Made by a program: the position numbers and the translations under genes. The notes under the pieces are model-generated. The model saw only the letters and a program-made list of their open reading frames with translations, was not told the DNA's origin and made no database searches. This document shows, in pieces, positions 706 to 20,320 of a stretch of 20,320 nucleotides of DNA. The DNA comes from a virus, in IMG/VR virus record IMGVR_UViG_3300038560_000019, positions 1 through 20,320 of that record, one strand, 5' to 3'. The stretch's first letter is position 1. Each line of letters begins with the position of its first letter.

Positions 706-740
706 AGCATAATCATTTCATAAAAAAGTAGGGATGTCAA
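706..740 (-). promoter_or_regulatory. Candidate leaderless promoter for the HNH gene
   Basis: TTGACA (735-740), a 17-bp spacer, a weak -10 AATGAT (712-717), and six bases to the ATG at 705. The geometry matches the stronger promoters in the window exactly. The -35 box lies inside the 5'-terminal half of the capsid terminator stem, and the -10 box is only 4 of 6. No Shine-Dalgarno precedes the ATG, which supports leaderless translation. Confidence 0.45.
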
Positions 741-759
741 ATTTAATCAACATCCCTAC
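722..759 (-). terminator. Intrinsic terminator after the capsid gene
   Basis: The minus strand reads GTAGGGATGT, a 12-nt loop, ACATCCCTAC, then TTTTTT. The arms are a perfect 10-bp pair (728-737 and 750-759) followed by a U tract (722-727). It lies 35 bases after the capsid stop codon. A second AT-rich hairpin (766-784, arms GATTTTAT/ATAAAATC) sits between the stop codon and the terminator. Confidence 0.85.
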
Positions 760-2752: not shown

Positions 2753-3588
2753 CAGTTTGTTATCGTAGGTTATTAACCCCTACATCATTGGCTTCTTATG
2801 TTATACCAATGCTCAGACTATCGCATCACCTCTCGGCGTTTTCTCATTTAGTCGTTCACGGTGGCTTTCGCCTTCCGCCTTATCACCTACTGCTAGGCGT
2901 CTAAGTCTATTAGAGAAAATTTATAATGCAGCTCTAATTATTCTATATAACTGAAAGTGTGACCCTTATAAGACGTCATTCGATGCTGCGGATTAAGGGC
3001 GGCATAAATACCATTTGCCTTTAATCCTAAGTCCTTTGCTGCCTCAACTACTAAAGTATAAACTTTTTCGTTTTGATGACAAATGAACTTTCGTGCGCGT
3101 TTTCGAAGTTTGGCGGTTCGGGCATCTGTCCGAGCTTTTATAGCTTCGAGAGTTGCCGGACCGCGTTTAGTCCGCCTTCGCGACTTCGCACTGTTAGAGA
3201 TATTTGCTAAGACCTCAGGTCTGGTTTCTTTTTGACCTTTGTTCCAAGCCCACTCTATGCCATGCTGACCTCCGGGAGATACATTGTACCGGGGGGCATA
3301 TTTAGCAATATAGTGTTTCTCAGCAGCATCTAAATCTACTTGATTGTAGTAGATACTATGCTTAGACCATTTAAAAGCTTCAGCTCCGTGCTTTCTAATC
3401 GCAGCACCTAAAACGCTATTCCCACCCTTGAGCGATAACGATATGTGTTGCCTTTGTCGGTCTTCGAGTCGTCTACGTGTTTGTCCTATGTAGACTATTT
3501 CGTCTTCCTTCGTTACGAAATATATTATCATGGGTTTACTGCTCATATGCATACCATTTTATCCTATCAGTTATGGAATTACAAGTTT
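2753..3588 (-). ncRNA. Group I intron 1 in the capsid gene (836 nt, carries a GIY-YIG ORF)
   Basis: Inferred self-splicing intron. The exon end TGCAGCTT (3589-3596) pairs over 8 bp with the guide sequence GAGCTGCA (2927-2934), with a U-G wobble at the splice site. The guide lies after the GIY-YIG ORF, so that ORF occupies the P1 loop. P7 is GACTA (2849-2853) with TAGTC (2816-2820), in the contexts AACGACTA and GATAGTCTGAGC typical of the R and S elements. Two P9-region hairpins follow (CATTGG/CCAATG and GTAGG/CCTAC). The 3' end ...CCTACGATAACAAACTG closely matches the end of intron 2 (...CCTAACGATAACAATTTG), so the introns look related. Removal joins T|TA into a Leu codon and restores the frame AALKELYT. 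Confidence 0.82.
2938..3552 (-). CDS. Intron-encoded GIY-YIG homing endonuclease
   Basis: A 204-residue protein. The N-terminal nuclease domain shows a diverged GIY-YIG signature (IIYFVTKEDEIVYIGQTRR, residues 9-27), with the YIG at 21-23, a His at 36, the catalytic Glu in AAEKHYI (78) and YNVSPGG (89-95). The middle (about 105-155) is rich in Lys and Arg. The C-terminus (about 156-204) matches the intron-encoded-nuclease repeat type of DNA-binding motif: EKVYTLVVEAAKDLGL, then a helix and YKGHTFSYIE. It sits inside the inferred P1 loop of capsid intron 1 and probably promotes homing of that intron. The first ATG is used here; a weak AGGAT precedes it, and a second in-frame ATG lies two codons later. 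Confidence 0.87.
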   Translation of the reverse strand: MHMSSKPMIIYFVTKEDEIVYIGQTRRRLEDRQRQHISLSLKGGNSVLGAAIRKHGAEAFKWSKHSIYYNQVDLDAAEKHYIAKYAPRYNVSPGGQHGIEWAWNKGQKETRPEVLANISNSAKSRRRTKRGPATLEAIKARTDARTAKLRKRARKFICHQNEKVYTLVVEAAKDLGLKANGIYAALNPQHRMTSYKGHTFSYIE

Positions 3589-10855: not shown

Positions 10856-11275
10856 TTAAAGGATGAATGGATTAAATATCCATTGTTTACGATACATAAT
10901 AGAGCGACCTACCTTTGTATAGTGGGTAGCCGTATTAAGATTTGAGGGAACTAAATCTTTTGCTATGCCGATATTGCGCCAGTTACGCTTGCAGAATACC
11001 CAATGTAAAGCATTCTCGTTGTAGACAGAGTATCCTAAGATTACACTTGGGTCTTCTCTGAGGCACGCGATCTTAACGATCGTATTAGGTTTCTTTATCA
11101 AATAATCTATTACGGTGTGGTAATGACCCATAAAGGCGTCCTTGGGTACGTCCGAATACCAGCTGTCGCCATAATACAGGCCTCGCAGCCAACTTGCAAA
11201 TATGAAGTTTAAATCATCTGGATGCAGGTCGCGGATTGTAATTAAGTCTGCCTTATTTATCGCTTCACTTGGCAT
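10856..11275 (-). CDS. GNAT-like acetyltransferase-fold protein
   Basis: A 139-residue protein starting with ITIRDLHPDDLNFIFASWLR (about 12-31). The central strand ILGYSVYNENALHWVFCKRN and the following RNIGIAKDL fit motif A of the GNAT fold, where R-x-x-G-x-A contacts acetyl-CoA. It is shorter than most GNAT enzymes and the C-terminal part is divergent, so it may not be an active enzyme. Proteins of this type are seen in several phages near terminase genes, with no known substrate. The ATG overlaps the upstream gene's end by 11 bases. Confidence 0.55.
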   Translation of the reverse strand: MPSEAINKADLITIRDLHPDDLNFIFASWLRGLYYGDSWYSDVPKDAFMGHYHTVIDYLIKKPNTIVKIACLREDPSVILGYSVYNENALHWVFCKRNWRNIGIAKDLVPSNLNTATHYTKVGRSIMYRKQWIFNPFIL

Positions 11276-11684
11276 ATCGTTTAACCATTTCTTTTCTAAG
11301 CGCCGATAACAGCTCGCGAACTTGCGTACTTGCGACTTTTATACCGTTCTGTTTTAGCTTGTGGGATGTTTCTCGCGAGCTCATACCTTCAGAATGCATC
11401 TCCCAAATCAACCGTTCTAATTCATCTTTAAAGTCGTAGTCATGCAGAAAAAAACCTGCAAGTCTATAATATTCTTCTTTTTCTGCTATGCGCTGTGCGC
11501 TTGAGCGTGGATTCTGCGCGCCTCTGTAAGTTTCGTTTCGCATCTCTGGATAAAGCAATCGATTTACTCTGTGTACAGTCCATCGTTTTAGATGATCTTC
11601 ATCCTGTTCGATATCATCAAAGCCATCATTAGCTAACTTTGCGTACCATTCATCTTGTAGTTCTTTAGGTGGTCGGTTGCCCAT
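11265..11684 (-). CDS. Hypothetical protein with C-terminal helix-turn-helix-like region
   Basis: I start this at the ATG at 11684 (MGNRPPKELQDEWYAKL, 139 residues). The frame is open 46 codons further, but that stretch overlaps the upstream gene almost entirely and looks non-coding. Residues about 103-135 (EGMSSRETSHKLKQNGIKVA then STQVRELLSALRKEM) read like a helix-turn-helix of the kind that detects DNA repeats. This, and its place shortly before the terminase genes, makes it a possible DNA-recognition protein or small terminase. No strong Shine-Dalgarno is visible, and the start overlaps the previous gene by 20 bases. Confidence 0.6.
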   Translation of the reverse strand: MGNRPPKELQDEWYAKLANDGFDDIEQDEDHLKRWTVHRVNRLLYPEMRNETYRGAQNPRSSAQRIAEKEEYYRLAGFFLHDYDFKDELERLIWEMHSEGMSSRETSHKLKQNGIKVASTQVRELLSALRKEMVKRYAK

Positions 11685-12000
11685 TTGATTGTGCTTTTTT
11701 CTGCTCAGCGAGCTGTCTGGTTTTGATCTCATGAAATACTGCGCCAGCGACTTGCTTTGCAACGCCAGAGCAAATAGAGAGATAGAAATAAAACTTGGAT
11801 TTATATGCAGTTGTCGTGCCAAGATTGATGATCATGGCTGCTACTGCGAATCTGATAGAATCCTGATCTTTCGTAGGAAGGTCATAGATCTCTTCGAATT
11901 CGGTGATCCAAGCCTCAAATGCTGTGGCGCCTTGAGGAAGCTTGGAAGGGAATAATGCGCGAACTTGTTTTGCAAGACGTTTAAATGACATCATAGACAC
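11665..12000 (-). CDS. Conserved phage protein of unknown function, GTG start under a hairpin
   Basis: A 111-residue protein: FKRLAKQVRALFPSKLPQGA, then WITEFEEIYDLPTKDQDSIR and a hydrophobic helical centre (VAAMIINLG), followed by YKSKFYFYLSICSGVAKQVA. It looks like a compact helical cytoplasmic protein typical of phages; I know no function. I keep the GTG at 12000 because AAGGAG lies seven bases upstream; in-frame ATGs at 11994 and 11991 are further away. The GTG, both ATGs and the Shine-Dalgarno all lie within a perfect 17-bp inverted repeat, so expression is probably regulated. Confidence 0.7.
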   Translation of the reverse strand: MSMMSFKRLAKQVRALFPSKLPQGATAFEAWITEFEEIYDLPTKDQDSIRFAVAAMIINLGTTTAYKSKFYFYLSICSGVAKQVAGAVFHEIKTRQLAEQKKAQSNGQPTT

Positions 12001-12028
12001 AAAGAATCTCCTTGTGTCTATGATGTCA
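11986..12028 (-). promoter_or_regulatory. 17-bp perfect inverted repeat over a ribosome-binding site and start codon
   Basis: Arms at 11986-12002 and 12012-12028 are exact reverse complements, separated by nine bases. On the mRNA the 5' arm reads TGACATCATAGACACAA, the loop holds GGAG of the Shine-Dalgarno, and the 3' arm contains the GTG start and the two following ATG codons. It could be a translational operator, or a DNA operator for a dimeric repressor, since a possible -10 box also falls inside it. Confidence 0.75.
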
Positions 12029-12049
12029 CAGTTAAACTGAAATTGTCAA
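12020..12049 (-). promoter_or_regulatory. Possible sigma70-like promoter overlapping the inverted repeat
   Basis: TTGACA (12044-12049), an 18-bp spacer and CATCAT (12020-12025), which matches TATAAT at 4 of 6. If used, transcription would begin inside the left arm of the inverted repeat, which would then act as DNA rather than RNA. Unlike the other promoters it is not placed for a leaderless mRNA. Confidence 0.4.
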
Positions 12050-12055
12050 GAGGTC

Positions 12056-12232
12056 TTAACCATTTTTTAACAATTTTTCTACTTCCGTCACCAAGGTGTT
12101 TTCTAAGGCTAAAAGGTTGCCCATAGCTTCTTTATACCTAACGAAATCAAGGGCTTTCTTTGCTCGTGCTGCTTCTTCTTTTACTGCTGCTATTGCTTCC
12201 ATCACATATCGGACGTTCTGTTCGTTATTCAT
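12056..12232 (-). CDS. Small helical protein, 58 residues
   Basis: ATG at 12232 preceded by AAGGAGATCGT, a strong ribosome-binding site that begins at the previous gene's stop codon. The product starts MNNEQNVRYVMEAIAAVKEE, continues AARAKKALDFVRYKEAMGNL and ends VEKLLKNG; it is charged and helical throughout, likely a coiled coil. Codon pattern and ribosome-binding site make it a believable gene. Function unknown. Confidence 0.65.
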   Translation of the reverse strand: MNNEQNVRYVMEAIAAVKEEAARAKKALDFVRYKEAMGNLLALENTLVTEVEKLLKNG

Positions 12233-12241
12233 ACGATCTCC

Positions 12242-12352
12242 TTAACACATGAATTTGATAGTATATCCTAAGTTCTTAAGCATTATGAGTGTGTACACGG
12301 ACATGCTATCTGTTACTACTACGATCTTTCCTTCTGTGTAATATGCGTTCAT
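12242..12352 (-). CDS. Small protein, 36 residues, leaderless start
   Basis: ATG at 12352 directly after a TTGACA-17-TACTCT promoter, with no Shine-Dalgarno. The product starts MNAYYTEGKIVVVTDSMSVY and ends LKNLGYTIKFMC: one strand, a helix and a second strand, so it could be a tiny alpha-beta fold. Its stop codon overlaps the ribosome-binding site of the next gene, so the two form a pair. Function unknown. Confidence 0.6.
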   Translation of the reverse strand: MNAYYTEGKIVVVTDSMSVYTLIMLKNLGYTIKFMC

Positions 12353-19235: not shown

Positions 19236-19502
19236 TTATCCCTCTGTCTTTGGTGCGGCGATTTCTTCTGCAGTCTCCGCTTTAGGCTTACCGAGGTAAC
19301 TCTCAATTAGATACTTTAAGACTTCCTTTTGTCTGGTATTCATGAGGTCCATGGTTTCTTTGATGTATTTCTCAACTTCATTAAGACGCGCATCTACGTG
19401 CTTTCTAAGGGCTTCGTAGTGCTGTTCGTGAAGCACTTCCGGTAGAAGCTCCTTCACGGCGATTCTCACTTGTCCTCGTAATTCTTTAATATTATTGCTC
19501 AT
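19236..19502 (-). CDS. Small helical protein, 88 residues
   Basis: Not recognised. It is highly charged and helical (IKELRGQVRIAVKELLPEVL, then RKHVDARLNEVEKYIKETMD), probably a coiled coil, with an acidic Ala/Glu tail. Its ATG overlaps the HNH stop codon as ATGA, and AAGGAG at the end of the HNH gene serves as ribosome-binding site. Confidence 0.68.
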   Translation of the reverse strand: MSNNIKELRGQVRIAVKELLPEVLHEQHYEALRKHVDARLNEVEKYIKETMDLMNTRQKEVLKYLIESYLGKPKAETAEEIAAPKTEG

Positions 19503-19885
19503 TTTTTCTTCTCCTTCTTTAATCTTCGGCGTTCTTTGTTCTCTGCCTTCGTTTTAATAGTATGGCAATCTTCACACAATGCTTGTAGGTTATTTTCATC
19601 ACACCATGCTCTATCGACAACTGTGTCTAAACTCATGTCCTCGAATGAGGAATCCAAGGGAATGAGTGGATCTTTGTGATCTACGATCATGTAGCTTTTA
19701 GGCGTCGGCTTGTGGCATTCTCTACAGATACACCAAACTTTGACTCGCGGTCGTGAGGGATCGGTAATAGTGCGATCTACCGAGGCTTCCACAACCTTAC
19801 GTCGTAGGTCGGACCTACTGAAGACGCGGCGTATAGCCCCTTTAAGCAATCCTTGCTCTCTCTTACTGATTCTCGGATTTTTCAT
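19499..19885 (-). CDS. HNH endonuclease
   Basis: A 128-residue nuclease with a zinc-stabilised HNH core. CRECHK (C54, C57) and CEDCHT (C104, C107) bind zinc; VDHKDP (D69, H70), DENNLQ (N98/N99) and H108 form the HNH catalytic set. The C-terminus is a basic tail (NKERRRLKKEKKK). The N-terminal 50 residues are basic and may contact DNA. Small HNH proteins of this kind can be homing nucleases or partners of terminase in packaging; here it is far from terminase and tightly packed between two tiny genes, so an ordinary phage gene role is as likely as a mobile one. Confidence 0.85.
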   Translation of the reverse strand: MKNPRISKREQGLLKGAIRRVFSRSDLRRKVVEASVDRTITDPSRPRVKVWCICRECHKPTPKSYMIVDHKDPLIPLDSSFEDMSLDTVVDRAWCDENNLQALCEDCHTIKTKAENKERRRLKKEKKK

Positions 19886-19988: not shown

Positions 19989-20320
19989 TTAAAAATCAGT
20001 TTCCGACAAGTCAGTTCCACGTAAGTCAACTCCCGTCAAGTTAGCTCCAGACAAGTTAGCGCCCTCAAAGTCAGTTCCTGATAAGTTAGCTCCTGATAAG
20101 TTAGCTCTTGATAAGTCAACTCCCCATAAGATAGCTTCCGACAAGTTAGCTCTCGACAAGTCAGTTCCTGATAAGTTAGCGCCCCAGAAGATAGCGTCCG
20201 ACAAGTCAGTTCCAGACAAGGTAGCTCTTGACAAGTTAACTCCCGACAATTCAACTCCGGACAAATCAACCTCCGATAAGTCAGCTCTAACGCCGTCGAT
20301 TTCGTTTCTTAGATATTTGG
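19989..20320 (-). CDS. Pentapeptide-repeat protein, 5'-truncated by window edge
   Basis: The frame is open from base 20320 to the stop codon at 19989. It first reads KYLRNEIDGVRADLSEVDLS, then about 20 tandem pentapeptides of the A(D/N)LSx type (for example GANLSGTDLSRANLS). Such repeats form a right-handed square beta helix; relatives such as MfpA and Qnr mimic DNA and protect gyrase, but most have unknown targets. The true start is to the right of the window; the TTG at 20264 lies inside the repeat and is not a sound start. The central Leu is replaced by Phe or Ile at a few turns (DAIFWGA, EAILWGV, TDFEGA). Confidence 0.88.
   Translation of the reverse strand, partial: KYLRNEIDGVRADLSEVDLSGVELSGVNLSRATLSGTDLSDAIFWGANLSGTDLSRANLSEAILWGVDLSRANLSGANLSGTDFEGANLSGANLTGVDLRGTDLSETDF
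19992..20290. repeat. 15-bp tandem DNA repeat coding for pentapeptides
   Basis: On the plus strand a unit like GATAAGTTAGCTCCT recurs about 20 times with substitutions, always in steps of 15 bp. This is the coding trace of the pentapeptide repeats, unspaced and not a CRISPR. The high DNA identity between units suggests recent expansion. Confidence 0.75.

Follow-up and report, generated by a model that had tools for sequence, protein, structure and literature searches.

What is the role of a long inverted repeat that lies across the start of a phage gene and holds part of its predicted promoter? This question is raised by a locus in IMG/VR record IMGVR_UViG_3300038560_000019, which belongs to an uncultivated phage. 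The window analysed here is a stretch of 20,320 nt of this record. The gene in question is gp111.

Position and geometry of the inverted repeat

The genes that flank the repeat are all on the minus strand. A primase/helicase-like gene and a DNA polymerase gene lie upstream. Downstream are gp111, a small gene in the TerS position, a GNAT-like gene, and the genes for the terminase large subunit, the portal and the major head protein. This gene order places the repeat at the junction between replication and packaging/head genes, as the first-pass annotation of the sequence had it. The TerS and GNAT names are what we take these genes to be from the look of their sequence and their position, without a library match. 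The polymerase has only distant similarity to isolated-phage sequences. For gp111, a family search in PHROGs and Pfam gives nothing above noise, and a convincing structural relative was not found with its predicted model, which is helical and confident. The features of the locus, in the direction of transcription, are as follows.

12387-12382, minus strand: TTGACA of P1, the promoter of the mini-ORF; followed by TACTCT, 6 nt and ATG, and leaderless-looking
12242-12352, minus strand: conserved 36-aa mini-ORF, MNAYYTEGKIVVVTDSMSVYTLIMLKNLGYTIKFMC, between the polymerase gene and gp111
12056-12232, minus strand: 58-aa ORF upstream of P2; its stop is 6 nt before the -35 box
12044-12049, minus strand: -35 box of P2, TTGACA; 57 distinct relatives have a -35-like box in the corresponding position
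12020-12025, minus strand: -10 box of P2, CATCAT, with a spacer of 18 and an extended TGn; pairs with ATGATG near the gp111 start in the predicted fold
12012-12028, minus strand: 5' arm of the hairpin (mRNA sense); holds the -10 box, with the predicted start site near 12013
12003-12011, minus strand: loop of the 17-bp repeat, with the Shine-Dalgarno GGAG at 12008-12011
11986-12002, minus strand: 3' arm of the hairpin; holds the GTG start (12000-11998) and ATG ATG codons
11665-12000, minus strand: gp111, 111 aa, at the head of the packaging/head block; predicted model helical, with pLDDT 94.5
11265-11690, minus strand: next gene, read as 141 aa and called TerS-like from its position alone; overlaps with the gp111 end

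The two arms match at 17 of 17 positions around a 9-nt loop, which agrees with the first description of them, and the repeat is the longest in the window. The next-longest inverted repeat in the window is 11 bp. Dinucleotide shuffling of the whole window, repeated 20 times, gives longest perfect arms of 8-12 bp (loops of 3-30 nt). The 17-bp repeat is far beyond chance. When one G.U pair is allowed, the hairpin has a stem of 20 bp and a loop of 3 nt (GAT). Beyond this stem there is a 3-nt bulge and then 6 further pairs (GTTTAA/TTTAAAC). The start codon is within the stem, as first proposed, but the GGAG, described at that stage as exposed in the loop, is mostly absorbed by the 20-bp stem and GAT alone forms the loop. 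The -10 box does lie inside an arm; it had been assigned to the left arm, but the 5' arm of the mRNA is the right-hand arm in plus-strand coordinates.

The arm search that had been suggested as a check shows that the site occurs once in the record, where the closest other sequence is a single match with 3 mismatches. In viral contigs, matches to the arm occur in the same population only. A search of isolated-phage DNA gives no match, and no Rfam covariance model matches in the window.

P2 is a predicted sigma70-like promoter (TTGACA-18-CATCAT, extended TGn). Its -10 box scores 4/6, and in a promoter scan of the region promoter-like sites are no more numerous than in shuffles. The TTGACA at the P2 position recurs across relatives. 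From the usual -10-to-start distance, the start site of P2 is predicted near 12013, which is the end of the 5' arm. The GTG named at first pass as the gp111 start is backed by the relative L008, whose protein is 77% identical and has an ATG with the same -10-to-start distance (19) and the same Shine-Dalgarno spacing.

Predicted folds and the proposed lock

In silico, the RNA that would read through from upstream folds at -36.7 kcal/mol (z -6.6) with the start codon paired at 1.00, and the RNA from P2 folds at -5.1 with the start paired at 0.35, both pairing values being measured on the in-frame ATG. The Shine-Dalgarno and/or the start codon is paired in a stable helix on the computed read-through RNA, and the RNA computed for P2 lacks the 5' strand of that helix. 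As the P2 start site is placed at the end of the 5' arm, its RNA is predicted to be without nearly all of the arm. The folding alters gradually when the start site is placed a few bases away, so its exact mapping matters.

The hairpin is probably a cis-acting, promoter-embedded translational lock that works like those of T4 e, soc and I-TevI. RNA from upstream, either from the DNA polymerase operon or from P1, would read through and carry both arms. This RNA would fold, the gp111 Shine-Dalgarno and GTG would be paired and gp111 would not be translated. P2 has its -10 box in the 5' arm and would start at the arm's end, giving an RNA that lacks the 5' arm and is translated. Because the P2 promoter is inside the 5' arm, only read-through RNA would be locked, a central point that the first-pass annotation lacks. 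This model builds on computed observations, namely the repeat, the promoter-like boxes, both RNA folds and the recurrence at the same gene with different sequence. From them we infer the start site, the read-through, the late timing and the repression in vivo. The lateness of P2 is unsupported by its sequence, because P2 resembles a host sigma70 promoter.

P1 is a likely source of the proposed read-through RNA. The upstream genes are on the gp111 strand, with the promoter-like P1 site upstream and no intervening terminator. In the window, no terminator was found between the 58-aa ORF and P2. Downstream, gp111 overlaps the next gene and that gene overlaps the GNAT gene. These overlaps suggest that the lock may silence several genes via coupling or polarity.

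The logic of such a lock is known from T4. In T4 e, soc, 49, I-TevI and segB and in Aeh1 mobE, early read-through RNA is locked by a hairpin (PMC3014915, PMC2988022). In these systems, RNA from late promoters within the 5' strand escapes the lock, and similar structures occur in related phages (PMC3014915, PMC2988022). T4 gene e (lysozyme) resembles the model for gp111 in that long upstream transcripts fold over the SD/AUG and are untranslated (PMC3014915). It is also alike in having a promoter in the 5' strand that gives RNA without the structure, and in the recurrence of the structure in related phages (PMC3014915). The two differ in that gene e has gp55-dependent late promoters and encodes a lysis enzyme, whereas the promoter here is sigma70-like and gp111 opens the packaging/head block. 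Unlike in gene e, the start region here has the -10 box itself as its pairing partner, the phage family is unrelated and the structure is described in silico only. In T4 I-TevI, soc, gene 49 and segB and in Aeh1 mobE, as proposed for gp111, a hairpin sequesters the ribosome-binding site and the gene's own promoter bypasses it (PMC2988022, PMC3014915). These are mostly homing endonuclease or single genes with unrelated sequence and promoters, and several of them are bench-tested. By this comparison, the sigma70-like promoter, the gene position and the complete turnover of the arms would set the present case apart. If the lock is real, a device described mainly for T4-like phages also exists in a phage family that is uncultivated and unrelated to them, where it stands at the head of the packaging/head genes with host-like promoters.

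Hairpins in the related phages

Profiles of gp111, GNAT and polymerase, run against IMG/VR, bring up a syntenic family. The iterated gp111 profile recovered 158 loci, and start sites for the later tests were set afresh. The comparison set is made up of 57 distinct relatives with a TTGACA-like/-10 promoter just before gp111. A comparable hairpin is kept at the same place, with unrelated arms, in about a dozen of the 57. It is absent in most relatives (about 40/57) and is therefore not essential to the family. Seven of the relatives' hairpins are given here.

L027: GTGGCATAATGTAA
L166: TGTCATTCTATATCT
L021: ATGTGTCATCT
L008: AGTCATTTTTGAC
L030: ACTCATGTGTC
L053: CATAGTTGT
L063: ATTCATATGTCA

The first-pass annotation held that absence of the repeat from close relatives, or drift of its arms without compensation, would count against a function. 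The outcome is divided. Some relatives have the repeat with another sequence and others are without it. The arms have drifted fully, and complementarity is kept in the window's own clade (L008 and L021) and also in L166 and L027.

In a swap test, the sequence upstream of the predicted start site was paired with the downstream sequence of the same relative or with that of other relatives. The swapped control retains the -35, -10, SD and ATG motifs. Among the 57 relatives, the mean pairing is -10.7 for own arms and -8.0 for swapped arms, and none of 10,000 permutations is as low. Nine phages outdo all 56 swaps in both directions. Pairing of -12 or lower is found in 19 phages, where about 6 are expected.

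The hairpins are concentrated at one gene. A hairpin with z < -2.5 is present at 14/57 gp111 starts and at 0/116 pol, GNAT and TerL starts of the same phages. Across 1.48 Mb, scanned on both strands, there are 134 distinct repeats that measure 10 bp or more. A -35-like box together with a start codon inside or adjoining the 3' arm occurs at seven of these, every one of them at gp111. Since the relatives are not independent, the Fisher values overstate significance. At the gene after gp111, the start site has a hairpin with z < -2.5 in 6/45 cases. Structure at this second start exceeds the controls, for example in L174, L041, L071 and L093. Relative L174 (PLNN01000002.1) is in a MAG labelled Candidatus Omnitrophota, which may be a hint of the host or a binning error.

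In many relatives the first three bases of the -10 box are CAT, which is complementary to the start codon. Among phages with a leader longer than 12 nt, a CAT-type -10 box is present in 8/12 with the hairpin and 9/35 without it. Counts of G.U and A.C mismatches (9 vs 6) are uninformative on RNA selection. The sense strand is only slightly favoured (p 0.013, not tree-corrected).

In the polymerase and GNAT tree, the window groups with L008 and L021 in a supported clade, all three of them with hairpins. These hairpins differ in sequence and register. The hairpin label needs about ten changes over the tree. Hairpins with z of -3 or lower cluster in one half of the tree (11/25 vs 1/32, uncorrected for shared descent). 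The presence, absence and complete arm change among relatives thus offer a natural test of how RNA locks arise.

The mini-ORF is also found in L008, L021, L027 and L166, and in a more distant form in L009 and L063. It has its own leaderless-looking promoter in the window and in L021, and directly adjoins the -35 box in L008, L021, L027 and L166. A mini-ORF close upstream is combined with a hairpin in the window, L008, L021, L027 and L166, and the carrier L063 also has a hairpin. In total, the hairpin is present in 6/7 mini-ORF carriers and 6/50 others, counts that are uncorrected for shared descent. In L009, the remaining carrier, a terminator immediately upstream of the promoter takes the place of the hairpin. 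The lock would keep mini-ORF read-through out of the late genes. A broader reading is tentative and somewhat less likely to be right than wrong. In it, the -10 box supplies the strand of the RNA lock that pairs with the start codon, the arms turn over completely while the lock is kept or regained, and the lock is linked to the arrival of a self-promoted upstream gene whose read-through must stay out of the late genes.

Clear terminators occur only in three relatives (L005, L028 and L009). A general rule that terminators replace hairpins was rejected, as three clear cases are too few for exclusivity. The family is also a test of whether RNA locks stand in for terminators. Leaderless-looking promoters are common in this phage family, with -10 boxes 6-7 nt before the ATG and mostly without a Shine-Dalgarno. 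Such -10 boxes are in the window at 12387-12352 (minus strand) and in L005, L009, L028, L063, L070, L073, L075, L081 and L161.

Alternative readings and other features of the window

A DNA operator for a dimeric regulator, one of the two functions first suggested for the repeat, is disfavoured and we regard it as unlikely. A phage repressor or activator on the palindrome would block or license P2, and the RNA fold would be a by-product. The palindrome spans -10/+1, the classic operator position, its arms are perfect in the window, and the sites of phage repressors can change quickly from one relative to the next. However, in eight phages the distance from the start of the -10 box downstream to the symmetry centre is 3.5, 9.5, 11, 12.5, 14, 14.5, 16.5 or 18 nt, with spacers of 4-28 nt and one-sided bulges in some stems. 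Half-sites of conserved sequence and spacing, set at a constant distance from the promoter, are absent, the arms have no common motif beyond the promoter and start codon, and the record has no further site. In every case the start codon is covered by the 3' arm or adjacent to it, an arrangement for which an operator has no need. Because the centres, spacers and bulges vary and the 3' arm still holds or adjoins the start codon, an RNA helix is favoured over a dimer operator.

The other first suggestion was an RNA operator bound by a coat or polymerase protein. Its RNA part is retained, as translational control at the switch from replication to packaging/head genes; its protein part is not, as the hairpins share no loop or stem sequence. 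Feedback repression by a phage protein (coat, polymerase or gp111 itself) bound to the hairpin would explain the symmetry too, and the coat and polymerase operators of known phages are likewise hairpins over a start site. The operators of RNA phages and T4 depend on their bound protein and on conservation of a loop or bulge. Here such conserved identity is absent; loops differ in all relatives, and loop and stem sequences are wholly different even among near relatives. P2 transcripts would miss most of the stem, and the fold alone is stable enough to block without a trans-acting protein. This reading is improbable, about half as credible as the DNA operator.

It is more improbable still that the hairpin is a transcription terminator or attenuator, or an RNase processing site, rather than a translational lock. 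A strong hairpin downstream of replication genes would suit such a role, but neither arm is followed by a U run, true terminators are at other places in L005, L028 and L009, and a processing site would have no need of a start codon inside it. Chance or a recent functionless inverted duplication, which would fit the patchy presence among relatives, is hardly credible, given that the repeat exceeds the shuffles and recurs with independent sequence at the same gene only, and that the permutation test strongly disfavours it. The translational lock is the reading that best accounts for the hairpin.

Elsewhere in the window, a 10-bp inverted repeat followed by TTTTTT (728-759, minus strand) lies after the major head gene and is a likely terminator. 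It overlaps the -35 box (TTGACA, 740) of a promoter-like site before an HNH-like gene at 705. Four small genes (175-705, 1932-2390, 2938-3552 and 19499-19885, minus strand) resemble HNH/GIY-YIG homing endonucleases by eye. They are scattered among the head genes and at the window end. An ORF at 19989-20264 (minus strand) consists of repeated LSGxxLxxAxL-type pentapeptides and probably encodes a pentapeptide-repeat protein.
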